From contig JAUXHN010000003.1 of assembly GCA_030621515.1 (NCBI GenBank), forward strand, positions 1-57,255: 57,255 nucleotides of DNA, in the 5' to 3' direction. Both the position numbers and the translations under genes were made by a program. Shown in pieces: positions 1-49,989 of this stretch (positions are counted from its first letter, which is position 1; each line of letters starts with the position of its first letter). Below the pieces are notes generated by a model, which was not told the DNA's origin, made no database searches, and saw only the letters and a list, made by a program, of their open reading frames with translations. The DNA comes from Deltaproteobacteria bacterium. GTDB taxonomy: Bacteria; Myxococcota_A; Polyangia; JAAYKL01.

Positions 1-1668
1 GCGGGTCCTCTTCTCTCATGGTTGGCCCTCCTGGCGATTGCAATAACGACCCTCTGGCCTCTCTTCAAGCGGGGCAGGGTATGGCTTGTTCCCGCAGCCG
101 GAGTTTGTCTTCTACTCGGCTTCCTGGGTCCCGTCTGGGCCGGTTCGGCGATCGCGCACACCCCACAAACCCTTGACAGGATCGACTCCGCAGGCGGGAT
201 GTCTCCGATGATCGGCAAGATCGTCCGCAAGCTGGGAGACGGGGACGGCGACGGCCATGCCCGCTGGATGGGCGGCCTGGATTGCAACGACGAGGATCCG
301 TCCATCCACCCGGGCGCACGGGAGATCCCGAACAACGATGTGGACGAGGACTGTTCCGGCGCGGACCTGGATCTCGATGAGCTTCGCGCCGCCGCCTCGG
401 GCGGTTCCGCCAGGGCCACGGGGGAGGGGATAACCTCCTATAAACGCCCGGATCTACCGGAGGATGTCTCCCTCTTCTTCATCACAGTAGACGCGCTGCG
501 CTGGAACGAGCCGGGGTTCATGGGCTACGAACGCCCGGTGACGCCGAACCTGGACAGGCTCGTGAAAAACGGAACCATCTACGATCGCGCCTACGCGCTG
601 GGATCGTACACCGGCCAGTCCATACCCGCCATGTTGACGGGCAAGTACACCTCGGAGCTATTGAGGAACGACAGGCACGAGTTGCGCGTGTCGGGCAAGG
701 AGAAATTTGCCGCCGAGTACATTTGCGGCGACAACGTTCGCTGCAACGCCATCCTCTCGCACTTCCTGTTCAAGCCACACTACGGCTGGAGCCAGGGATT
801 TCAGGAATGGCTAGTGTCGGGCGCGGCCCCGGAAGGCCCCGGGCATATTGACTCCAAGTACAACTCTCACATGGTGGCGAACAAGGCCGTCAATTGGTTG
901 AAGGACCCAGAGAACACGGCGGGCAGATTTTGGATATGGACCCACTTCATGGATCCTCACAAGGAGTACCTGGACCACGAGGGGTTCAGGCGGTTCGGAA
1001 AAGATCGACGATCTCGCTACGACCAGGAGGTACTCTTCACCGACCACCATGTGGGGCGGATGCTCGACTTCTTCATGACCCTCCCCTCGGCGAAGCGCAC
1101 CATCTTCATTGTGACCTCGGACCACGGGGAGGCGTTCAACGAGCATGGGCGATGGTGTCACGGCAAGGAGCTGTGGGAAGAGATAGTACGTGTGCCCATG
1201 GCCGTGGTCGGGCCCGGAATAGCCAAAAAACGGATCGCGCGGCAGACCAGCCACATCGACCTGTTTCCCACCTTCCTGGATATCTTCAACCAGAAGATCC
1301 CCGACGGTATACACGGAAGAAGTTTGCTGCCCGACTGGGTGGAGGGCCAGGAGATCCCGGAGAAACCCATCGTGGTCGACCAGCCGAAGAACCCGTACTA
1401 CGAGACACGGCGGGTGTTCATCAGGGACGGCTGGAAGCTCCACGATCTCCCCGATACGGGCACCCAACGCCTCTATAAAGTAACCGACGACTACGAGCGA
1501 GGTGATTCCCTGGTTTCGATCGAGCCGGAGAAGTACGCCGAGATCAAGGCGGCGTACGACCTCTTCATGGCCACGGAGTTCAAGCCCGTCGCGACCGTCA
1601 GTTACGGGGCGGATGCGGACGACGTGAACGAGATGCCCCTGCCGCCGGGGGCAGGGAAGAACCGTTGA
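1..1668 (+). CDS. Membrane-anchored sulfatase / alkaline-phosphatase superfamily protein with MopE-like segment (5' partial)
   Basis: The frame is open from base 1, so the start lies outside the window; 555 residues are visible. The visible N-terminus holds at least two hydrophobic helices (about bases 1-150), so a multi-pass membrane anchor is likely. Bases 238-363 encode an Asp/Cys segment (DGDGDG, then DCNDEDPS, then DVDEDCSG), the pattern of the putative metal-binding motif of MopE-like proteins. From about base 465 comes a sulfatase-type hydrolase domain: TVDALRW with the first metal Asp, a SYTGQS segment at the nucleophile position, then SDHGEAF and HGKELWEE, the usual distal metal ligands. 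The Cys/Ser-x-Pro-x-Arg sulfatase signature is not present, so the nucleophile is probably Thr or Ser as in phospho-/sulfo-transferase branches. Substrate unknown; the catalytic domain should face the periplasm. Confidence 0.85.
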   Translation, partial: AGPLLSWLALLAIAITTLWPLFKRGRVWLVPAAGVCLLLGFLGPVWAGSAIAHTPQTLDRIDSAGGMSPMIGKIVRKLGDGDGDGHARWMGGLDCNDEDPSIHPGAREIPNNDVDEDCSGADLDLDELRAAASGGSARATGEGITSYKRPDLPEDVSLFFITVDALRWNEPGFMGYERPVTPNLDRLVKNGTIYDRAYALGSYTGQSIPAMLTGKYTSELLRNDRHELRVSGKEKFAAEYICGDNVRCNAILSHFLFKPHYGWSQGFQEWLVSGAAPEGPGHIDSKYNSHMVANKAVNWLKDPENTAGRFWIWTHFMDPHKEYLDHEGFRRFGKDRRSRYDQEVLFTDHHVGRMLDFFMTLPSAKRTIFIVTSDHGEAFNEHGRWCHGKELWEEIVRVPMAVVGPGIAKKRIARQTSHIDLFPTFLDIFNQKIPDGIHGRSLLPDWVEGQEIPEKPIVVDQPKNPYYETRRVFIRDGWKLHDLPDTGTQRLYKVTDDYERGDSLVSIEPEKYAEIKAAYDLFMATEFKPVATVSYGADADDVNEMPLPPGAGKNR

Positions 1669-2540: not shown

Positions 2541-4934
2541 TTATTCCGGCACGACGTTGCCCCATTCGGGTTCGGACGACGGGTCCTTGTCCCCGTATTC
2601 CTCGTCGTCTTCAGGCAGCACCCGGATCCCGCTCCGGCTGATGGGCATCCTCGACTCCGGAAGAGGATCTCCCTCGTGGTAGAACCGGAGCTCCTGGCTC
2701 AGCCCCTCAGCAAGCTCCGTCCGGTCTATCCTCCCGCGATCGAACATGGTTTTCATCACCCGGTGCAGGGAGTTCATCTTGCGCTCGGACACCTGGTTGC
2801 GCACGTAGGTTCCGTGACGGGTTATCGGGCTGGGCAGAAGCTTGATCAGGAAGACCGACTCCACGAGGTTGAGTTCGTGGGGCTCCCGCCCGAAGTAGTG
2901 GCTTGCCGCCTCCTTGATTCCGTACAGGGTCGGGCCGAATTCGATGACGTTGAAATACAGCTCCAGGATCTCGTCCTTGGTGAACTGGGACTCCATGTAC
3001 CAGGTGAAGAAGAGCTCCTGCAGTTTTCTGGCCACGGTCCGCTCCCGGTTCATGAAGAGGTTCTTGGCCAGCTGCATGGTGATGGTGCTGGCCCCGTGGC
3101 TCAGGCTGTCCTTCTTGAGGTTGAGCTCGATGGCTCTTTTTATCTCCGGGATGGTAACGCCCCGATGATGTCTGAACTTTCCATCCTCGGTGGTGAGCGC
3201 CGCCTCTACGAGGTACGGCGAGATCATGGAGTACGGCGTCCATCTGTCCGTTCCCGGGCCGCTGATCAGTCGCATGGGTTCTGCGTCAGCGCCATAGGCG
3301 GTGTAAGAGAACGGCCTTCGGAAATCCTGCGGGTTCGGTACGGTGCTGAAGTCCGTGATCTGGCAACGGTTGTCCAGGTTCACCTCCAGCGCAGTTTTTC
3401 CCGGCGCGTTCTCGTCGATGCCCAGTCGCATGTCCAGGGCGAACAACCCCTCCAGCTGTACTCCTTCCAGACGAGGTTTCAGCTGCGAGGGCACCGCCGC
3501 GAGGATCTGTCGGCACGCCGTGGGAGGGACGTTTCCGGAGATATCGAAGGCGAAACGATCGAACATCACGTTGCCCCGCAGGGTAATCCTGGCAAGCCCT
3601 CGCACCGCCATCAACCGCTCCAGATTGAGCTGTCCCTTGTCCTGTTCGTAGCTCGCCTTGAAATCCAGATGGGCATCGAGATCCTCGATGGACTCCGCCG
3701 CCAGTCTCGGATGACTTACCGCTAACCCCGAGATCGAAGCCTGGCCTTCGAATGCCAGCTTCTCCCCGTTGTCCTGTAATTCCACAACTACGGTTCCGTC
3801 GACCGATGCACGCCCCCACTCGATGTGCTCGTTGGGCATGAACATCTCGCCGACGGTCTTCAGCGGCATGTCCGGTATCTCGATGGAGACGCTCGGATCC
3901 TCGTCCCCGGGCCAACTCGCTCCCAACACCCAGCGAGCATCGGTTCCAGGCATCTGCCCGCTCGCCCGGATCGTCAACGCCCTTTTTCGTGTCAGGGAAA
4001 TCTCCCCGGACACGCCGGAGAGCTTCATTTCCAGGTTCTTGTCGCCCGATTTCGAAAGCACGCCGGACGCATCCAAAACGTCTACCTTTACCGAGATGCC
4101 CTCATCATCAACCGCAGGGCCGGACTCCGCCTGCACGTCGCCCTCTTCGATGCTCCCATCGGCCTCGGCCAGGCCTCCTTGCGAATCAACCATGCCGAGC
4201 GCGCGTGCGCTGTCCCTGGCGTCCTTGACGAGTTTTTCCAGATCCTGAGGGTCCACAGGCAGATCGAAGCCCGGCTGGTTCAAGGAAAGAGACACATGTT
4301 CTCTCTCGCTCCTCAACTGCACCTCGCTGGATTCCCCGAAAACAAGATTCCGTCCGAGATGAACCAGGGTGAAATCGTCGGTGTTGACAACAGCTCCTCC
4401 CTCGGTCGAAAACCGTCCGGACAACCCCTCCACGGTTACCGAGAACATTCCATCATCCGCGACGAGACGACCCGAAACGAGGTGGATCTCTGGGATGGAT
4501 CGCGTCGGGCCGGCGCCCTGTGCCTCTGCGTCCATTCCCTTCGAAACTCGTTCGATCAGCTCTCTCCACTCCACGGCCTGCGCTCCGTCCAGGGACTCAC
4601 CCATCCGGATCTCGAGACCGTCCACCCGGATACCGGTGAGATCGAGATCTCCCATCAACAGCGACCCTACCCGCACCCCGACCCCGAGGCTTTCAACCAG
4701 GACGAGCGGTCGTGAACCCTCCTTCGACCGGACCTCCACATTCTCGAAGACCACTGAAGAAAGCGAGATGTCTACGTCCTCGAAGGATATGTGAACGCCG
4801 AGTCGCTCCTCGACCCTGGGAATCAAACCCTCTATGATGCGCTCGTCGGCTCCGGATTGAAGAAACAGAAGCGCCAGGAGGCCCAGAACGAGCACCAATA
4901 TGAAGAGGGCCAGGAGCCAGCGCTTGATACCCAT
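2541..4934 (-). CDS. AsmA-like protein fused to a GT51 peptidoglycan glycosyltransferase domain
   Basis: 797 residues from ATG 4934; a TTG three codons earlier is an alternative. An N-terminal signal anchor (about residues 8-27) precedes roughly 500 residues of beta-rich, AsmA/TamB-like sequence (for example repeated LDLTGIRVDGLEI-type strands). The C-terminal ~230 residues are a GT51 domain: TTEDGKFRHHRG with the catalytic Glu near residue 583, GASTITMQLAKN, then RKLQE and ILELYFNVIEFGPTLYG. GT51 enzymes polymerise lipid II into glycan strands at the outer face of the inner membrane. No transpeptidase domain follows, so it would be monofunctional. The long AsmA-like part is unusual for such an enzyme and suggests a link to envelope lipid handling. 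It diverges from the phosphoribosyltransferase gene across a 134-bp gap. Confidence 0.85.
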   Translation of the reverse strand: MGIKRWLLALFILVLVLGLLALLFLQSGADERIIEGLIPRVEERLGVHISFEDVDISLSSVVFENVEVRSKEGSRPLVLVESLGVGVRVGSLLMGDLDLTGIRVDGLEIRMGESLDGAQAVEWRELIERVSKGMDAEAQGAGPTRSIPEIHLVSGRLVADDGMFSVTVEGLSGRFSTEGGAVVNTDDFTLVHLGRNLVFGESSEVQLRSEREHVSLSLNQPGFDLPVDPQDLEKLVKDARDSARALGMVDSQGGLAEADGSIEEGDVQAESGPAVDDEGISVKVDVLDASGVLSKSGDKNLEMKLSGVSGEISLTRKRALTIRASGQMPGTDARWVLGASWPGDEDPSVSIEIPDMPLKTVGEMFMPNEHIEWGRASVDGTVVVELQDNGEKLAFEGQASISGLAVSHPRLAAESIEDLDAHLDFKASYEQDKGQLNLERLMAVRGLARITLRGNVMFDRFAFDISGNVPPTACRQILAAVPSQLKPRLEGVQLEGLFALDMRLGIDENAPGKTALEVNLDNRCQITDFSTVPNPQDFRRPFSYTAYGADAEPMRLISGPGTDRWTPYSMISPYLVEAALTTEDGKFRHHRGVTIPEIKRAIELNLKKDSLSHGASTITMQLAKNLFMNRERTVARKLQELFFTWYMESQFTKDEILELYFNVIEFGPTLYGIKEAASHYFGREPHELNLVESVFLIKLLPSPITRHGTYVRNQVSERKMNSLHRVMKTMFDRGRIDRTELAEGLSQELRFYHEGDPLPESRMPISRSGIRVLPEDDEEYGDKDPSSEPEWGNVVPE

Positions 4935-5068
4935 GATCGACAAAGTCTTTCACGAACACTGAATAACTTCAACGTCCTCGTATACGAATCACATGTGATC
5001 AATCAAGGCGCATTTGTGGCCAACCATGCGCTTGAGGAAACCGCGGCCTTTTGCGAAGATAACCGGCC

Positions 5069-5557
5069 ATGGGACGCTTGATCAGGCAAACCGAAATGGA
5101 GACAATGGCCGGAGCGCTGGTGGCGCAGCTGGCCGATTTCGATCCGCAAGCGGTGGTCTACATCCACTCCCAGGGTCATTTTTCGGGCGAGGTTCTAGCC
5201 CGCTCTTATGGCGCGGATCTTTTCAAGCTGGACCTTCGATACCCCTTCAGCCGTGTACTCGCTTCGATCCCGAGACCGTTCCTCATTCCCCTGTGGCCAC
5301 TGAAGGAGTTGATGTACAAAGTTTCGGCTCCTTCACTGAAGGGAGCCGCGCAACTGCCAAGCCCGGGTGTTCGCATCACCCTGGTGGACGACTCGGCGAG
5401 CAGTGGACGAACTATCCGAATGGCCCTGAGCATTCTCGAGGACAACGGTCACAAGCGCAAAGACATTCGCGTTGCAGTGCTTCGATGCGGCGGCAGGGCA
5501 CAGGAACTGGTGGATCATTACGTCACCGGGAATCCGGTGATATTCAGTTTGAGATAG
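5069..5557 (+). CDS. Phosphoribosyltransferase-like protein
   Basis: 162 residues. The segment ITLVDDSASSGRTI is a type I phosphoribosyltransferase PRPP-binding loop (hydrophobic strand, two acidic residues, then S/T-G-R-T). An early strand, AVVYIHSQGHFSGEVLA, matches the position of the PPi loop in this fold. The protein is short and has no recognisable hood domain, so the base substrate cannot be named; it could also be a regulatory PRTase homologue. It stands alone: divergent from the AsmA-GT51 gene and convergent with the PilZ gene 11 nt away. No strong ribosome-binding site is visible before the ATG. Confidence 0.7.
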   Translation: MGRLIRQTEMETMAGALVAQLADFDPQAVVYIHSQGHFSGEVLARSYGADLFKLDLRYPFSRVLASIPRPFLIPLWPLKELMYKVSAPSLKGAAQLPSPGVRITLVDDSASSGRTIRMALSILEDNGHKRKDIRVAVLRCGGRAQELVDHYVTGNPVIFSLR

Positions 5558-5568
5558 GCTTCAAGGTG

Positions 5569-5988
5569 TTATCTGGTCTGGGCATGCCTTACGAATCTTC
5601 TCGCCACGTAGCAACGCAGTTGCTCTCTGGCGTCGTGCCCCATATCACAGAATGCCACGCCCATCCCCGCGCTTCCCTGGCCGTCTCCCACGTCGGCCCG
5701 TACGACCTTTCCCTTGACGGAAAATGGACGGCGGCTGGAGGGCAGGGAAAGCCGAAGGAGCAGCTCCTCGCCCTCGAATAACAGGAGATCCGAGTGCAGG
5801 TAAACTCCCACGGCGCTCAGGTCGAAACAGTCGAACGCCATGGCATCCCCATGTTCGTCCACCAGTTCGATTGACACGTCCTCTATGGATCTTCGGGAAC
5901 TCTTCCTGCGATTCGTCCGACGGGAAACCCCCGCAGTATCCACTACACATTGCTTTACGGCATGTTCGACGCGTCGCGGATTACCCAT
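5569..5988 (-). CDS. PilZ domain protein
   Basis: 139 residues from ATG 5988 (preceded by GGAAT); a TTG at 6048 would add 20 residues with no domain content. The protein has the PilZ hallmarks: an arginine-rich RRKSSRR stretch where the c-di-GMP-binding RxxxR lies, followed by a DLSAVGVYL strand matching the D/NxSxxG motif, then a six-strand barrel ending in GMGVAF. PilZ domains bind cyclic di-GMP and pass the signal to motility, polysaccharide or other envelope outputs. There is no attached effector domain, so it presumably works by contact with a partner. No obvious operon partner. Confidence 0.8.
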   Translation of the reverse strand: MGNPRRVEHAVKQCVVDTAGVSRRTNRRKSSRRSIEDVSIELVDEHGDAMAFDCFDLSAVGVYLHSDLLLFEGEELLLRLSLPSSRRPFSVKGKVVRADVGDGQGSAGMGVAFCDMGHDAREQLRCYVARRFVRHAQTR

Positions 5989-6069
5989 GAAATCATTTAT
6001 TCCATAACCGGGACCCGGGGTCAAAATCTTTCTATTATACTTCGCCAATCGATACTAATGCGTCTATTA

Positions 6070-7071
6070 TCACGGAAAAACCAGGATACGTTCCTCCCCG
6101 TGCACCGCGATCAATTTGTCCACGTGGGCGATCAATGCGTCTCTTCTGGCTAGCAAGAGCGCGATCTCCGATTCTTTTAGCAGCGCTCGACCCGGGCGAG
6201 TGGGCCCCCACTTCACGGTATCCATCACCGCTCTTGCTTCAAGCCTGCGCAACTTGGAAATCAGGGCGACGGAGAATCTCTGGCAAGACGAAAGCAGATC
6301 GTCCATTCTCATGCGTTGTCGATCGGACCACGTCGAGAAAGATCCGTTATTGTCGATGAGCACAAGGGTGGATCCGGAGCTGTCGGCGAACAGGTTCCCG
6401 CCCGAGAACCGATCCCAGTTTCCGGCCACGTAATCGAGCGTTACCATTGACGACGCGGGCGCAACGAGCGGTTCTTCGCCGGGCGTGGGACCGTCAATGG
6501 AGAGAAAGAAGTCAAGCTTCACGCGACCTTTGCGACCATCGAGCCCGGACACGACGATATCGTCCATCCAGGTGATCATCGCGCCGGGAATAGCCCCGTT
6601 GTCTCCCGTGCGCGCCTCTTTCCTCAGGGACGAAGCCACATCAGGGAAGTGTTTCTCCAGGTGTCCTGTGAGCCTGGGAAGCGGGATCTCGCGCATGGTC
6701 GAGGGGGGCACCCTCTCCACCCCGAGCAATCTTGCGAGGCGAAAGTAGGCAACCTCGAAACGGGCGGTGCCGTTGCCACGGCGCATGGGCTTGAAGACCG
6801 CGACATCGCCTTGAGTCAGCTTCACCTTCAACGACAAGGAGCGCATGGAGATCGGGCGCACACCGACTATTTTGCCGCTGACGAGATTCTCCGTCATGTC
6901 TCCGGGCAAGCTCGCGGACCGGCGAGGTTCCTCCACATTGGCGCGAGGGATCACATCCTTCTTCGCCACTTGCGTCACTCGTCGATCTTCCTCGCCCGCA
7001 TGCTCTCCTGTGCCCGAGCAGCTCAACGACAGGACTCCGAACAAGAACGCCGGTATGGGTATTCTGGTCAT
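6070..7071 (-). CDS. Lipoprotein with FAM20C/HipA-like protein-kinase-fold domain
   Basis: 333 residues with a strong ribosome-binding site (GAGGGAG). Signal peptide and lipobox: LSLSC at residues 14-18. From about residue 65 the sequence shows the core signatures of the FAM20C / HipA / PI-kinase-like branch of the kinase fold: VAVFKP with Lys94 as candidate ATP-binding lysine, FEVAYFRLARLLG with Glu106 as its salt-bridge partner followed by a VP, GNWDR at 217-221 with Asp220 as candidate catalytic base, GGNLF, and LIDNNGSF with Asp240 as candidate metal-binding Asp. All expected catalytic residues are present. The lipoprotein signal puts the domain outside the cytoplasm, as FAM20C is in the secretory pathway. 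Substrate unknown. It is a single gene with a divergent neighbour (DksA family). Confidence 0.7.
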   Translation of the reverse strand: MTRIPIPAFLFGVLSLSCSGTGEHAGEEDRRVTQVAKKDVIPRANVEEPRRSASLPGDMTENLVSGKIVGVRPISMRSLSLKVKLTQGDVAVFKPMRRGNGTARFEVAYFRLARLLGVERVPPSTMREIPLPRLTGHLEKHFPDVASSLRKEARTGDNGAIPGAMITWMDDIVVSGLDGRKGRVKLDFFLSIDGPTPGEEPLVAPASSMVTLDYVAGNWDRFSGGNLFADSSGSTLVLIDNNGSFSTWSDRQRMRMDDLLSSCQRFSVALISKLRRLEARAVMDTVKWGPTRPGRALLKESEIALLLARRDALIAHVDKLIAVHGEERILVFP

Positions 7072-20712: not shown

Positions 20713-20787
20713 GGGCCTGTAGCTCAACTAGGTTAGAGCCCCCGGCTCATAACCGGGTGGTTTCCGGTTCGATTCCGGACGGGCCCA
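20713..20787 (+). tRNA. tRNA with CAT anticodon (Met, or Ile2)
   Basis: 75 nt cloverleaf: acceptor GGGCCTG pairing with CGGGCCC (one T-G wobble), D-loop AGCTCAACTAGGTTAGAGC, anticodon stem CCCGG/CCGGG around CTCATAA, T-arm with GGTTCGATTCC. Discriminator A at 20787; the 3' CCA is not encoded. CAT reads AUG as elongator Met, or AUA if the C is lysidinylated (tRNA-Ile2); the body favours elongator Met but this is not decisive. Confidence 0.9.
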
Positions 20788-21600: not shown

Positions 21601-22012
21601 CTGTTGAAGCGGCTCAGGTGATCGCCGGCAAAAGCGACGTTTCGGCGTCGTTTGCGGGAGGAAAGTCCGAGCTTCGCAGGGCAAGGTGCCGGGTAACGCC
21701 CGGTGGGGGTGACCCCGAGGAAAGTGCCACAGAAAATATACCGCCTTGGGCCGCGAGGCCGAGGGTAAGGGTGAAATGGTGCGGTAAGAGCGCACCGGGG
21801 TCCCGGTAACGGGGCTCGCGAAGGCAAACCCCACCTGAAGCAAGGCCAAACAGGGAGCGGCCGTCTTTGACGGCACGGATTGCCCGTCCGAAGTCTCCCG
21901 GGTGGGCCGCATGAGGTGGTCGGTAACGGCCGTCCTAGATGAATGATCGCCGCCCCTGGTTCGGGCGACCGGTCAGGGGAACAGAACTCGGCTTACGAGC
22001 TCTTCAACAGAC
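21601..22012 (+). ncRNA. rnpB: RNase P RNA (bacterial type A)
   Basis: About 410 nt. CTGTTGAAG at the 5' end pairs with CTTCAACAG at 22002-22010 (P1). Conserved parts in order: GAGGAAAGTCCGAGC (P4 5' strand region), ACAGAAAATATACCGCC, GGTAAGGGTGAAA, GGTAAGAGCGCACC, AGATGAATGATCGCC and ACAGAACTCGGCTTA (P4 3' strand). These are all diagnostic. It is the catalytic RNA that matures the 5' ends of tRNAs. A terminator follows directly. Confidence 0.97.
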
Positions 22013-38666: not shown

Positions 38667-39806
38667 AGCCTGTTTCTTGCCATGCAACTGCATATGACCT
38701 GACTGTATTCCCTCGCTAGCCAGGGCGGCCAGCGCAGCGAGATTCGACGCCAACCCCACAGACACGGCCACTTGCGCCAGCTCGGACGCGCACTCGACAC
38801 CCACGAGATCCAGGCACGCGACCGCCCCGGGGTTTGCCGTGGATGCGCCACCTACCAGGCCGACAGTCATGGGCATCTCCACCTCTCCGACCAGATCGGA
38901 TCCCTCTATCCGCCAGGTCGCAAGCGGGGCGTAGCTTTTACCTCTCGCCGCGAAAGCGTGAGCCCCCGCCTCCACCGCGCGCCAGTCGTTTCCGCATGCG
39001 AGCAGGAATGCGTCTATTCCGTTGAAGATCCCCTTGTTGTGCGTGGCCGCCCTGTACGGATCCGAACACGCGAAATCCGAGGCGGCAGATACGCCCACGG
39101 CCACATCCTTACCACTGAACCCCTCTCGATCGAGAGCCTCGAACGGGATGGCGCACCTCGCGCGAGCGAGGCGGTGATCTGCCAGGTTCGTGAGTATCCG
39201 CAGGCCGGCGCGTCCGCCCGCGATCTCGGCCAGGCGATGAGACACGGCCTCGGTCATGGTGTTGACCATATTGGCGCCCATGGCATCACGGCAATCAATG
39301 TGCAGGTGAACGACCAGCCGCCCGGGCCCGCCAACATCGCAACGGACCGCCATTGTGCGCATCCCGCCGCCCAGTGACACAAGCTCCGGCTGGACGGCGT
39401 CGGCTATCCGTACAATTTCATCGACGGAGTCTTCCAGACGCTCTCTTGCCCCGGGCAATGGATCGAGGATCTCCACCTGGCCGGCCATGATGGGCGGGTC
39501 GGCCTGCGCCAGGAACCCCGTGCCGGCGCGTGCCATCCTTGCGCCGTTCGAGGCCGCAGCTATCACAGAAGGTTCCTCCACCGCCATGGGCACCAGTAAT
39601 TCCACCCCGTTGACCATGAAATTGGTTGCTATCCCCAGTGGCAGGCAAAACACTCCCACCGCGTTCTCGATCATCGCGTCGGCCTTCTCAATAGTGAGGT
39701 CAGCGCCAAAACCGGGATTTTTGATCCGTCGTGATATTTCTTCCAGCCTCTTTGCAGGGCTTCTCTTGTGGAACCCCGGCAGCCTTGATCTTCCCTTCGA
39801 TTTCAT
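38631..39806 (-). CDS. mvaA: Class II HMG-CoA reductase
   Basis: 391 residues from ATG 39806. Class II motifs are present: ENAVGVFCLPLGIATNF with the catalytic Glu, DCRDAMGANMVN with the Asp-x-Met-Gly-x-N cofactor site, and a TNK-like AATHNKGIFNGIDA region with the catalytic Lys. It reduces HMG-CoA to mevalonate (or runs in reverse in catabolism); the class II form usually uses NAD(H). No other mevalonate gene lies here. Its ATG overlaps the TGA of the upstream Asp-repeat protein (ATGA), an odd partnership. Confidence 0.92.
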   Translation of the reverse strand: MKSKGRSRLPGFHKRSPAKRLEEISRRIKNPGFGADLTIEKADAMIENAVGVFCLPLGIATNFMVNGVELLVPMAVEEPSVIAAASNGARMARAGTGFLAQADPPIMAGQVEILDPLPGARERLEDSVDEIVRIADAVQPELVSLGGGMRTMAVRCDVGGPGRLVVHLHIDCRDAMGANMVNTMTEAVSHRLAEIAGGRAGLRILTNLADHRLARARCAIPFEALDREGFSGKDVAVGVSAASDFACSDPYRAATHNKGIFNGIDAFLLACGNDWRAVEAGAHAFAARGKSYAPLATWRIEGSDLVGEVEMPMTVGLVGGASTANPGAVACLDLVGVECASELAQVAVSVGLASNLAALAALASEGIQSGHMQLHGKKQALPTDAEGIDSE

Positions 39807-40654
39807 GAATCGATTTCCCTCTCGAGCTTGTCGAATTTCTTTGCCACTTCGAACACACCATCGTGGTCGAGATCGAATTCCTCCCTGATTTTCACTCCGT
39901 GAATATAGAATGCCTTCTTGTCCGGCTTTCCGCTCCCATCCAGCGACCAGTGCTGCTCCACCACCTGACCGAATTTGCCAAACGACCACGAATCCGGCCG
40001 TCCGTCATAATCGAGATCGTATCTGCCGTTCGTGAAGTGACCGAGTTCGAAGAATTCCCAGGCGTCCACCGAACCATCGAAATTCAGGTCGCTCTCAACT
40101 CTCTCCGTCTGGCCGAACTCTCCACAATATATCCACTCGTCAATCCTTGTGTCGAAATTGGTGTCGTTATCAACCCTGTTCCTGTATCCGTACTTGCCGT
40201 ACTTGACCCACTCATCCACTTTCTGATCGAAGTTCTTGTCGCTCCTGGACCCTACCTGCACTCCCATAACGAAGATGGTCCACTCGTCGACCTTGTCGTC
40301 GAAATTCAGATCGTTCTTGATCTCGCTCGCCCGGCCCATCTCGTCGAACTGGACCCATTCGTCCGGCTTGCCATCGAAGTTGGTATCTTTCCTCGATCGC
40401 ACGGGGACACCGTCCTCGAACTCGGTCCAGTCGTCCCTGCGGCCGTCGAAATTGTTATCTCTCTCCCATTTGAGAAACTTACCGTCCTTGAAGATGATCC
40501 ACTCGTCCACTTCACCGTCGGCGTTCGAATCACTCTCCTGCCAACCGTCGGGCGACTCCTCTTCGTCAGAAACGACGACAAGGGTGATTGAAATACCCGC
40601 GACCGCTCCCAGCATCGTCGTGGCAAGGGCAACCGGCAAGATAGGACTACGCAT
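39803..40654 (-). CDS. Exported protein built of ~10 Asp-rich DxNxDGxxDEW repeats
   Basis: 283 residues. One N-terminal hydrophobic segment (LPVALATTMLGAVAGISITLVVV) is a signal or membrane anchor. Residues about 42-270 are nine to ten repeats of ~25 residues; each begins DxNFDGxxDEW, then a short strand, Gly-x-x, and a turn. The DxNxDGxxDE loop is like calcium-binding EF-hand/dockerin or TSP3 loops. The repeats probably form an extended Ca-stabilised rod. Translationally coupled to mvaA by a 4-nt overlap. No known function. Confidence 0.75.
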   Translation of the reverse strand: MRSPILPVALATTMLGAVAGISITLVVVSDEEESPDGWQESDSNADGEVDEWIIFKDGKFLKWERDNNFDGRRDDWTEFEDGVPVRSRKDTNFDGKPDEWVQFDEMGRASEIKNDLNFDDKVDEWTIFVMGVQVGSRSDKNFDQKVDEWVKYGKYGYRNRVDNDTNFDTRIDEWIYCGEFGQTERVESDLNFDGSVDAWEFFELGHFTNGRYDLDYDGRPDSWSFGKFGQVVEQHWSLDGSGKPDKKAFYIHGVKIREEFDLDHDGVFEVAKKFDKLEREIDS

Positions 40655-46098: not shown

Positions 46099-46572
46099 AT
46101 GGGTATGGAACGAAGCGGCGAAAAGATAGTCTGTCGCAACCGCAGGGCCAGGCGCGACTACAACATCGAGGACACCTTCGAGGCCGGTCTCGTCCTTGTT
46201 GGAACCGAGGTGAAGTCCCTGCGCCAGGGCAAGGCCGATCTCACGGACTCTTACGTCACGTACCGGCTAGGAGAACTCTTTCTCGTGGGCACACATATCA
46301 CGTCATACGAAAACGCGACCCACTTCAACCACGAGCCCAAAAGAGAGCGAAAGCTCCTGATGCAAAAACGAATCATCGAGAAACTCGGGGTTCGAATAAA
46401 AGAACGCGGATACACGCTGGTTCCGCTGGAGATCTACTTCAAGAACGGCTGGGCCAAGGTGCTCGTAGGACTGGCCAGGGGAAAGAAGCAATACGATCAC
46501 CGAGCCCAGATTCGCAAGAAGGACGAGCGCAGGGAGATGCGCGAAGCCGCATTGGATAAGAGGAGTCGATGA
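46099..46572 (+). CDS. smpB: SsrA-binding protein SmpB
   Basis: 157 residues, typical length. Conserved parts: NRRARRDYNIEDTFEAGLVLVGTEVKSLRQGKADLTDSY, HFNHEPKRERKLLM, and GYTLVPLEIYFKNGWAKV, plus a basic C-terminal tail (KKDERREMREA). With tmRNA it rescues stalled ribosomes. The ATGA at 46569-46572 joins it to the next small gene. The tmRNA gene itself is not in this window. Confidence 0.95.
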   Translation: MGMERSGEKIVCRNRRARRDYNIEDTFEAGLVLVGTEVKSLRQGKADLTDSYVTYRLGELFLVGTHITSYENATHFNHEPKRERKLLMQKRIIEKLGVRIKERGYTLVPLEIYFKNGWAKVLVGLARGKKQYDHRAQIRKKDERREMREAALDKRSR

Positions 46573-46832
46573 GTGGCAACATCACAGAGCGCCATCTCGA
46601 AACAACGATGCTCATCGATTACTACGATGGCATGGCCGTGCTCTCCTGCCCGGCAGGTTTACCTCCGGGCTCTCGGGTGCGATTCGGGTTTCCCGATGGT
46701 AACGCTGGCGATCGGACGTTCCACGGCAAGATCGTCAAGCTGAAGCGTCTTAGCGACGGCGCCTTCGCCGTATCTGTAAGGCTGCACAACCTGGACAGGA
46801 TCCACCGAGAAATCCTCGAAAAGCTAGTCTGA
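46569..46832 (+). CDS. Small PilZ-like or unknown protein coupled to smpB
   Basis: 87 residues, starting in the ATGA overlap with smpB. The sequence has a short beta-barrel pattern (MAVLSCPAGLPPGSRVRFGF, FHGKIVKLKRLSDGAFAVSVRLHNL) reminiscent of PilZ domains, but the RxxxR motif is lacking, so c-di-GMP binding is not expected. No signal peptide. Function unknown. Its 3' end overlaps the convergent Thr-Asp lipoprotein gene by 9 nt. Confidence 0.55.
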   Translation: MSGNITERHLETTMLIDYYDGMAVLSCPAGLPPGSRVRFGFPDGNAGDRTFHGKIVKLKRLSDGAFAVSVRLHNLDRIHREILEKLV

Positions 46833-47396
46833 GATCAACTGCGCCCAGGAAAAGCCGTTGCAACCTCCCGAAATATCACCGTGGTCCGCCGAGGTATTGG
46901 CGGCGGCCGTGGATTCGTCTGCGGCCGCGTATTCTACCTGACAGTAATACAGGCTCACCCCGCCGTCCGCCTGGCTGTCATGGGCCCAGTCGTACCGGGA
47001 CCACAGGTCCGGGTAGTAGCTGTCCACGCTGTCGTTCTGGGCCGTCAGGTACCCGGCTGTGTTGTCGTACGCCTCGATGTGGCACTTGCTGGTCGTGGGC
47101 CCCGCGTCGCCGTACGGCGGGAAAACCGTCGTCCAGCTGGCGGCGGTGATCTCGTGGACGGCGCCCCAACTCTCCGTATAGCTCCCAATGATTGCCAGGG
47201 CTCCGGCATCGGCATCCGTGTCGGTGTCGGTGTCCGTGTCCGTATCCGTGTCGGTATCCGTGTCCGTATCCGTGTCGGTGTCCGTGTCCGTTGCCCCACC
47301 GTCGATCCCGGCGTCCGTGTCGTCATCGTCCGAGCACCCGCACGGCAGCACGAGAGCCCCAATGATGACCAGCATCCCAATAATTGATTTTCCCAT
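46824..47396 (-). CDS. Thr-Asp-linker lipoprotein downstream of a cobalamin riboswitch
   Basis: 190 residues from ATG 47396 (AAGAGGT upstream). Signal peptide with a lipobox region ALVLPCGC, acidic stretch, then 13 Thr-Asp units. The mature domain (about 115 residues) starts at LAIIGSYTESWGAVHEIT and has WTTVF, TSKCHIEAYDNTAGYLTAQNDS, LWSRYDWAHDS, YYCQVEYAAA and GGCNGFSW; it is aromatic-rich with three cysteines. I cannot name the family. The only regulatory element upstream is a cobalamin riboswitch whose 3' end lies 154 nt before the start codon. This suggests a B12-related surface role, perhaps binding or capture of cobalamin; it is an inference from context. Confidence 0.8.
   Translation of the reverse strand: MGKSIIGMLVIIGALVLPCGCSDDDDTDAGIDGGATDTDTDTDTDTDTDTDTDTDTDTDTDADAGALAIIGSYTESWGAVHEITAASWTTVFPPYGDAGPTTSKCHIEAYDNTAGYLTAQNDSVDSYYPDLWSRYDWAHDSQADGGVSLYYCQVEYAAADESTAAANTSADHGDISGGCNGFSWAQLISD
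47216..47291 (-). repeat. Hexanucleotide tract coding (Thr-Asp)13
   Basis: About 12-13 hexamers of gtgtcc, gtatcc, gtgtcg and similar on the + strand, with silent variation only, between the lipid anchor and the mature domain. Confidence 0.85.
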
Positions 47397-47550
47397 GGTG
47401 TTTACCTCTTGGCTCCCCTTGAATAAGCCCTCGCCCCGACCCGGGCGACGAGCAATTCTCCCCTCGTCCGAGAGGCAAGCTTCGAACACGCTTCGAATAG
47501 ACCGCGTGTCAGGGAACCGTGAAGTCTTACACCCCGTAGACTGGAGGTGC

Positions 47551-47714
47551 CGCTGGACAGGTCTCCTGGCTCCCGGATCAACCTACTTGCGGCGCCTTCC
47601 CGGATCTTTTGATCTAGTGGCAGTGCCGCGTTCGTCCCCGGATACAGTGGCGGGGGCCGCGCCGGTTTCCAACCGGCTTCCCAGAGCGAAAGCATTTCGC
47701 CCTTGTCCATGCAG
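47551..47714 (-). promoter_or_regulatory. Cobalamin (B12) riboswitch
   Basis: Read on the minus strand, it runs from about 47714 to 47551. All conserved parts are there in order: GGGAAGCCGGT, CCGGCGCGGCCCCCGCCACTGTA, CCACT, GGGAAGGCGCCGC, and GAGCCAGGAGACCTG. P1 is formed by GGACA near 47708-47704 and TGTCC near 47559-47555. The 419-nt gap 47397-47815 contains only this element and its 154-nt leader, with a CTCGTCGCCC/GGGGCGAG hairpin near 47433-47455 as possible expression platform. The first gene downstream is the Thr-Asp lipoprotein at 47396. Confidence 0.95.
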
Positions 47715-47815
47715 CGAAAAAAATGAAAAAGAACGTTGGAATTACTTACCACCAAGAAGAATGTGTTCGCAACGATAATTGACCTGTCCGCACACAGAGT
47801 TCTAGAATCCAGACC

Positions 47816-48049
47816 GTGGACAATGCGCAAGAAAAAATCAAGGCCGCGAAGCGTCACTACGAAAAGGGTGATTTCAAGTCCGCTCGCGCGAATGCAAAGC
47901 AATTGATCAACGATGACACTCTGACCGAAGAGGCGAAGCGAGAAGCGCGGAGGATCCTCAAGGCTACGGGTATCGATCCGATCTCCACCGGGGTCTTTCT
48001 CATCACGTTCTGCCTGCTTGCATACCTCATCATCAAGTACATCTTTTGA
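47816..48049 (+). CDS. Small C-terminal-anchored protein
   Basis: 77 residues from GTG 47816. The first ~55 residues are charged helical, TPR-like (KAAKRHYEKGDFKSARANAKQLINDD), and the last ~20 form one transmembrane helix (GVFLITFCLLAYLIIKYIF). It overlaps the DinG-type gene by 4 nt, so they are coupled. A tail-anchored inner-membrane protein with unknown role. Confidence 0.6.
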   Translation: MDNAQEKIKAAKRHYEKGDFKSARANAKQLINDDTLTEEAKREARRILKATGIDPISTGVFLITFCLLAYLIIKYIF

Positions 48050-49989
48050 CCGACGTGACGGACATCTTCGGGCCGTCCGGGCCCATCTCCAGGAAACTGT
48101 CGAAGTTCGAACGCCGCGATTCGCAGATCGAGATGGCAGCGGCAGTCGAAAAAACAGTGATGGGAGACGGGGTGCTCCTCGCCGAAGCCGGCACCGGTAC
48201 GGGAAAGACACTTGCATACCTGGTTCCGGCGATCCTCTCTTCGAAACGCGTTGTGATCTCCACCGGTACCCGGAACCTGCAGGAACAGATTTTTTTCAAG
48301 GATCTGGCCTTTCTCGAGGAGGCGCTTAAGGTTTCCGCACAGGCAACCTATTTGAAGGGTCAGGAAAACTACCTTTGTGTTCGAAGGTTCCAGAACTTCC
48401 TTCGTTCACCTCGTGTCCTGGCTCATGATTCCCATGAGGTGAGCCGGCTCGAACAATGGTCTCGCACAACCCCGACCGGCGACCGCATGGAGGTCGAGGG
48501 GCTCAGTGACGACTCACCTCTCTGGCGAGAAGTGTGCTCTACCCGCGAGACGAGGATCGGCCAGAAGTGTCCTTTCCACTCTGATTGTCACCTGACAAGG
48601 GCGAGAGATACGGCAAGGCGTGCGCGTATCATCGTCGTCAACCATCACCTCTATTTTGCGGATCTAGCCACCCGGCTCCAGGGCGGCTCCGTTCTGCCCG
48701 AACACGATGCGGTGATCTTCGATGAGGCCCATTTGATCGAGGATATCGCCACCGAGTTCTTCAGCATCAGGATATCATCCGGTCGGGTTGACCGCCTGAT
48801 GACCGAAACGATGAACTCGGTGAAAAGCGCACGAATCAATGAGGATCCCAATGAGACGAGACGCCCCAATCTCGTGAAATACGCGCGCGCCGAAACTTCC
48901 GCTATGTTCACGGCGTTCAGAGACGAACAACAGGGGCGACATCACCTTGCAATACGCGAGATCCCGGCCGAGGTCATTCAGATCTACCACAAGCTCGATT
49001 CGGCCCTGGAAGCGGTGGAGATGTCTCTTCACTCGCTGAAAGGCCGTGATCAGGCTGTCGATCACTGCGCCCTTCGAATCACCGGGGTTCGTCGAGATCT
49101 AGCGGATGTCATCGAGGGGGACTCGCGGAGTTACGTTCACTGGATGGAAACGCGACAGCGTTCCGTGGTGCTCGGAGCTTCCCCCATCGATATTTCCGAC
49201 TTCTTTCGGCGTGGCGTGCTCTTTTCCATCCCTTCCGTCGTGCTGACCAGCGCGACGCTTTCTACCGGCGGGAACTTCGAGTTCTTGCGCTCCAGATTGG
49301 GAATCGATTTCGATGCGGACGAGCTGTCCCTCGCAGCGCCATTCGACTATGAAAAACAAGTCATGCTCTACGTTCCGTCCGAGTTTCCTGATCCGCGAGA
49401 TCCCGACTTCGCGTCTCACGTGTCGAACGAGGTAACACGTCTGGTAGCAATAACCGGTGGCGGAGCGCTGTTGCTGTGCACATCCGTCAAGAACATGCGC
49501 GCCATCCACGCAAATCTCATCGGCAGGGTGCCCGGACCGCTCCTCATTCAGGGGGACGCGCCCAAGTCGGTTCTCATGTCCCGATTCGTGCAGGAGAGAT
49601 CCTCGGTACTCGTCGCCACAACGAGCTTCTGGCAGGGGGTGGACCTTCCAGGAGATGCGCTACGGCTCGTCATCATAGATAAGCTCCCATTCGCATCACC
49701 TGGCGATCCGGTGGTTGCCGCCCGTATCGACCGCCTGAAGGAAGACGGCAAAACTCCCTTCACCGATTATCAGGTTCCGCAAGCTGCGCTGGCCTTGAAA
49801 CAGGGGTTCGGACGGCTCATAAGGACCAGGGATGATCACGGGGTGGTCGCGATAATGGATCAACGACTCTACACCATGGGTTATGGAACAACCCTCCTTG
49901 CGTCACTTCCCGACTGCCACCGCGCCTATCTGATAGATGATGTCGAGAAGTGGTGGGCCGGCCAGGAAAGCCCAATCATCGCTCGTTGA
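48046..49989 (+). CDS. DinG/XPD-like ATP-dependent DNA helicase with Fe-S cysteines
   Basis: 647 residues; start at TTG 48046 (GTG 48055 is an alternative). Walker A EAGTGTGKT, the motif Ia STGTRNLQEQ, Fe-S-type cysteines (YLC near residue 107, then CS, CPFHSDC), FDEAH box, SATLS, and later motifs TTSFWQGVDLPGD and QGFGRLIRTRDD. This is superfamily 2 helicase of the DinG/XPD/YoaA class, which unwinds 5'-to-3' at forks, R-loops and damage. It is complete. The 3' end overlaps the convergent hydrolase gene by 14 nt. Confidence 0.93.
   Translation: MTDVTDIFGPSGPISRKLSKFERRDSQIEMAAAVEKTVMGDGVLLAEAGTGTGKTLAYLVPAILSSKRVVISTGTRNLQEQIFFKDLAFLEEALKVSAQATYLKGQENYLCVRRFQNFLRSPRVLAHDSHEVSRLEQWSRTTPTGDRMEVEGLSDDSPLWREVCSTRETRIGQKCPFHSDCHLTRARDTARRARIIVVNHHLYFADLATRLQGGSVLPEHDAVIFDEAHLIEDIATEFFSIRISSGRVDRLMTETMNSVKSARINEDPNETRRPNLVKYARAETSAMFTAFRDEQQGRHHLAIREIPAEVIQIYHKLDSALEAVEMSLHSLKGRDQAVDHCALRITGVRRDLADVIEGDSRSYVHWMETRQRSVVLGASPIDISDFFRRGVLFSIPSVVLTSATLSTGGNFEFLRSRLGIDFDADELSLAAPFDYEKQVMLYVPSEFPDPRDPDFASHVSNEVTRLVAITGGGALLLCTSVKNMRAIHANLIGRVPGPLLIQGDAPKSVLMSRFVQERSSVLVATTSFWQGVDLPGDALRLVIIDKLPFASPGDPVVAARIDRLKEDGKTPFTDYQVPQAALALKQGFGRLIRTRDDHGVVAIMDQRLYTMGYGTTLLASLPDCHRAYLIDDVEKWWAGQESPIIAR

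Follow-up and report, generated by a model that had tools for sequence, protein, structure and literature searches.

The window, the 57,255-nucleotide stretch of DNA analysed here, carries a cobalamin riboswitch placed before a gene for a small predicted lipoprotein, and the protein is most simply read as a lipoprotein of the outer membrane that serves B12 scavenging and would capture corrinoids for BtuB, a reading to which we give a probability of about two in three. Riboswitch control in most of the family of this protein and the frequent proximity of a second lipoprotein gene or of B12 transporter genes make it most likely that it belongs to a B12-scavenging system not described before. To our knowledge, detailed work on surface lipoproteins that capture B12 is confined to those of gut Bacteroides (BtuG, BtuH, BtuJ and BtuK). 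If the reading is correct, the protein would represent a separate capture family, one that has a partner of its own and is widely distributed in a phylum whose members are largely environmental and apparently cannot make the corrin ring, and a riboswitch regulon could serve to assign function to proteins devoid of annotated domains.

Predicted lipoprotein gene and its surroundings

The features of the locus, in window coordinates, are as follows.

46099-46572 (+): SmpB-like gene, neighbour of the lipoprotein gene
46569-46832 (+): PilZ gene, neighbour of the lipoprotein gene
46824..47396 (-): predicted lipoprotein gene, 190 aa, from the ORF and homologues; distant relative of the LIC13354 family
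46827..47201 (-): conserved LIC13354-like domain, about 120-125 residues, from alignments A1 and A2
47202..47336 (-): flexible acidic Thr-Asp stalk, from the sequence; length and composition vary among homologues
47337..47396 (-): predicted lipoprotein signal peptide (MGKSIIGMLVIIGALVLPCG) with Cys21 as lipidation site, from the sequence and the lipobox-like sites of homologues
47397..47539 (-): leader and probable expression platform, from fold and conservation
47405-47409 (-): Shine-Dalgarno AGAGG, 8 nt before the ATG, which can be paired away
47540..47725 (-): cobalamin riboswitch aptamer, complete RF00174 model
about 47816-48050 (+): 77-codon ORF, neighbour on the riboswitch side
from 48046 (+): DinG-like helicase gene, beyond the 77-codon ORF

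The single gene that the first-pass annotation had placed at 46824-47396 is real: it starts with an ATG at 47396, ends with a stop at 46824-46826, is preceded by a Shine-Dalgarno sequence and has plus-strand neighbours on both sides. Since both flanking genes lie on the plus strand, it constitutes a single-gene unit. The hydrophobic N-terminus of the protein ends in LPCGC, where the residues before the lipobox cysteine are atypical; its relatives carry standard lipoboxes (LSAC, VAGC, LTAC). Stalks in other homologues are of Gly-Glu-Thr or Ser/Thr type or nearly missing. Matches of the full-length protein to Sdr-type adhesins result from the composition of the stalk, and an identity of this kind was rejected. 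Together, the stalk and the lipoprotein prediction suggest that the protein is exposed at the surface.

Riboswitch and leader

The window matches RF00174 with 94.2 bits (gathering threshold 31.5; E 3.4e-22) over model positions 1-189 of 189, and the complete B12 riboswitch previously read from the letters at 47551-47714 (-) lies inside this match (47540-47725, minus strand). The aptamer is one of two B12 riboswitches in the genome and is separated by 144 nt from the ATG at 47396. Past the aptamer, the leader folds with GGUUCCCU paired to AGGGGAGCC and with the Shine-Dalgarno region paired (MFE -66 kcal/mol, z -3.2). A search for an intrinsic terminator on the riboswitch strand found none. Given this result and the burial of the Shine-Dalgarno in the leader fold, translational control is the likelier mode of action. 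The GGAA of aptamer loop L5 could alternatively pair with UUCC in the stretch of leader that otherwise folds over the Shine-Dalgarno. As for its direction, the element is presumed to be an OFF switch.

Riboswitch association across class and phylum

The association of riboswitch and gene is conserved far beyond the window. In the class, 56 units with the domain were found, five of which are cut by a contig end; among the 51 testable units, 45 have a same-strand RF00174 match that lies 171-586 bp ahead of the domain. Across the phylum outside the class, a same-strand upstream riboswitch occurs in 33 of 40 loci (17/20 top matches and 16/20 further ones), two of these riboswitches being weak (34.8 and 38.4 bits) and that of locus L105 lying about 1.1 kb upstream. 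The order of riboswitch and gene is thus kept in 78 of 91 units at 21-47% protein identity, and the association spans several taxonomic families, down to about 20-30% identity. The other 13 of the 91 testable units show no riboswitch, even at a relaxed threshold. Chance is excluded as an explanation since cobalamin riboswitches number only 126 across the 52 carrier genomes, so that expected chance placements are well under 0.1, although the counts are not independent because the members of the family are related by descent.

The recurrence of homologues beside B12 riboswitches, on which the first-pass annotation had made its reading depend, was checked and found; homologues also recur beside btuB and btuCD. 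The same conservation, together with that of the leader, which is kept in two congeners, leads us to reject the idea that the riboswitch is a relic that has lost control of the lipoprotein gene.

The carrier genomes also contain other riboswitch contexts. Among the 126 riboswitches of the 52 carriers, 54 are near no LIC13354-like, LIC13355-like or btuC gene, which indicates that more targets remain. At L081, a DUF7151 protein with collagen repeats (4787-6391, plus strand) has its own cobalamin riboswitch (4467-4591, plus strand) and is divergent to the homologue of the window gene. At L083, a second cobalamin riboswitch (1183-1367, minus strand) lies downstream of the homologue.

Conserved domain

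The domain is found in 14 of 78 relatives; class-wide it occurs in 52 of 318 genomes, and in a sample drawn phylum-wide in 120 of 379. In the alignment of 63 domains, Cys152 (codon 46941-46943) and Cys179 (codon 46860-46862) are invariant (63/63), Gly11, Trp77, Ala104, Gly118 and Trp124 are almost invariant, and aromatic positions are often conserved; the histidine at domain position 21 occurs in 48/63 and is thus not invariant. In an exported protein, the invariant cysteine pair probably forms a disulphide. Proteins at the loci examined contain one to three tandem copies of the domain, and such copies, with the many conserved aromatics, would suit a ligand-binding module.

Searches for known relatives gave little. 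Neither Pfam nor PHROGs yielded a convincing match to the domain. When PDB sequences were searched with profiles, A1 retrieved only two unrelated matches at chance level and A2 none at E<=10. The lack of similarity to BtuG and BtuH noted earlier therefore holds at the sequence level, and membership of the window domain in the BtuG, BtuH or DUF4465 families was rejected. Among the plasmids and viral contigs searched there were no confirmed relatives. AlphaFold2, run on the window domain with two relatives (91-93% identical), gave an unusable model (pLDDT 36.5).

B12 regulon and gene neighbourhoods

The only other B12 riboswitch of the genome precedes an operon of btuB, a propeller-like lipoprotein gene and a gene for a lipoprotein of the LIC_13355 family, divergent from btuF, btuC and btuD.

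L020 505-1518 and 1368-2783 (-): the two genes that follow btuB in this operon of the window's genome, for the propeller-like and LIC_13355-family lipoproteins; the B12 riboswitch precedes all three genes

The LIC_13355-family protein of this operon is a full member of NF033170 (155.5 bits, cut-off 120). The propeller-like proteins are so called, rather than BtuG, from a weak repeat match and the look of their sequence. Comparable arrangements exist in other genomes. At L008 and L009, the homologue adjoins btuCD. In the B12 island of L092, a riboswitch, a LIC13355-like lipoprotein gene, btuB and the gene for another propeller-like protein (25% identity to that of the window's genome over 266 residues, E 7e-08) face a homologue that has two domains and a riboswitch of its own. 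In three further loci, L071, L084 and L085, the homologue is divergent to a LIC13355-like gene that has a riboswitch to itself. In the carrier genomes, a LIC13354-like gene adjoins 13 of 37 LIC13355-like genes, and most of these pairs share a strand and a single upstream riboswitch; proximity to a riboswitch, to btuC or to a LIC13354-like gene holds for 32 of the 37. The lipoprotein gene very probably belongs to the B12 regulon. The first-pass annotation had set it apart from the known targets, B12 transport or synthesis genes; it fits in with the transport genes instead of standing out as an odd target.

The constant company of btuB and LIC_13355-like genes would also suit an accessory of the regulon that binds no corrinoid itself, and that would serve BtuB or the LIC_13355-type lipoprotein as partner or scaffold, or act in vesicle release. 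There is a precedent in BtuL of B. thetaiotaomicron, which is co-regulated yet does not bind cobalamin and for which a role in vesicle release is proposed (PMC12751083). This role is unlikely, though the most serious competitor, for the genes of the family are usually transcribed as separate units under a riboswitch of their own, in many cases a long way from btuB, and domains duplicated in tandem are more characteristic of ligand-binding proteins. We regard direct binding of corrinoids by the window domain as probable.

Probable need for B12 in carriers

Scavenging fits what is seen of the metabolism of the carriers. Because the aerobic pathway lacks CbiD, so that the absence of CbiD alone is no proof of auxotrophy, CbiC/CobH was added as a second marker of corrin-ring synthesis. 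Both are absent in 39 of the 40 carriers tested, and B12-binding-domain proteins are present in all 40; these counts cover carriers only and no enrichment is claimed from them.

Link to Leptospira LIC13354 and LIC_13355

A distant relationship links the domain to Leptospira. NF047669 (LIC13354 family exoprotein, NCBIfam) matches 45 of the 63 members, with a best E of 1.8e-11, but its best score among the 52 carrier genomes, 43.9 bits, is under the curated cut-off of 130. The window protein itself scores 16 bits (E 0.011, cut-off 130) and is thus a relative rather than a member; its residues 35-121 align to profile positions 72-161 and span both invariant cysteines. LIC13354 was compared through the NCBIfam profile and the literature. 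The domain had been called uncharacterised in the first-pass annotation, which stands as far as Pfam and PDB are concerned and has to be amended for this distant Leptospira family. The partner family LIC_13355 is common to both systems, the window's genome having its partner in the btuB operon, although NF033170 is a different family from that of the window domain.

For 20 Leptospira species, the cob II cluster is listed as including orthologues of LIC13354 and LIC13355 along with cobTSC, with the pair at its head; in saprophytes, the cob II genes are split into two separate clusters (PMC4758666). In L. interrogans, the cobalamin riboswitches reported are those of btuB and the cob operon, and none is reported before LIC13354 (PMC3953431, PMC3493377), though one study lists three candidates (PMC7567364). 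The direct riboswitch control of the window family is therefore not known in Leptospira, and in this respect the two families differ.

The listing of the Leptospira pair with cobTSC, which are nucleotide-loop genes, and the invariant cysteine pair raise the question of a chemical action on extracellular corrinoids beyond binding, such as remodelling or release from carriers. This is very improbable: the invariant Cys, Gly, Trp and Ala make up no recognisable catalytic set, and both cysteines are most simply accounted for by a disulphide in an exported protein. Only slightly less improbable is a surface protein that merely responds to B12 and has a role unrelated to corrinoids, in adhesion or envelope change. 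The partner family is known only as a putative laminin and plasminogen binder, from in vitro binding by recombinant LIC_13355 in a study that does not mention B12 (PMC11891782), and in host chambers LIC13354 and LIC13355 are raised 3.77- and 3.72-fold, respectively (PMC3953431). However, the LIC_13355 protein in those assays came from insoluble material and had to be refolded, the carriers of the window family are mostly environmental genomes judging by their record titles, and the neighbouring genes are those of B12 uptake.

It is about an even chance that LIC13354-like and LIC13355-like proteins constitute two undescribed families of corrinoid-capture lipoproteins, shared by the window's phylum, which is probably Myxococcota, and Leptospira, and paired in B12 uptake. 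Were this so, B12 scavenging would be the role of Leptospira proteins that at present figure as putative adhesins or as exoproteins of unknown function.

Proposed role and comparison with known B12 lipoproteins

Surface capture of corrinoids and their hand-over to BtuB is the simplest role for the window protein in the light of BtuG, BtuH and BtuJ (PMC10404256, PMC8941943, PMC12751083, PMC13398666). At high cytoplasmic cobalamin, the riboswitch would bind its ligand and the leader would stop expression, probably by hiding the Shine-Dalgarno. At low cobalamin, the lipoprotein would be made along with BtuB, the propeller-type lipoprotein and the LIC_13355-family lipoprotein. The stalk would keep the compact, probably disulphide-linked and aromatic-rich domain off the membrane, where it may capture corrinoids and pass them to BtuB-BtuFCD.

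BtuH, a B12-binding surface lipoprotein of Bacteroides, is likewise under a B12 riboswitch and made with BtuB (PMC8941943, PMC10404256), but BtuH2 combines Ig-like PKD domains with a ligand domain of ~250 residues, and the PDB search with the window family gave no sequence similarity to it. BtuG, the beta-propeller lid of BtuB, belongs to the same kind of regulon, and a propeller-like lipoprotein gene follows btuB in the window's genome; the window domain, in contrast, is small, probably Cys-linked and without propeller repeats. BtuJ, with DUF4465, is an exported B12 binder of riboswitch loci, and DUF4465 also occurs in Myxococcota (PMC13398666), yet Pfam detects none in the 63 members of the window family, which also lacks the GTPAYF/MNTPSY-type tyrosine motif.

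Other features of the window

At 39803-40654 (-), the window encodes a further exported-looking protein, with about ten DxNFDxxxDEWxxF repeats. A class A RNase P RNA (21605-22010, plus strand; 283 bits) and a tRNA (20713-20787, plus strand) are both ordinary.
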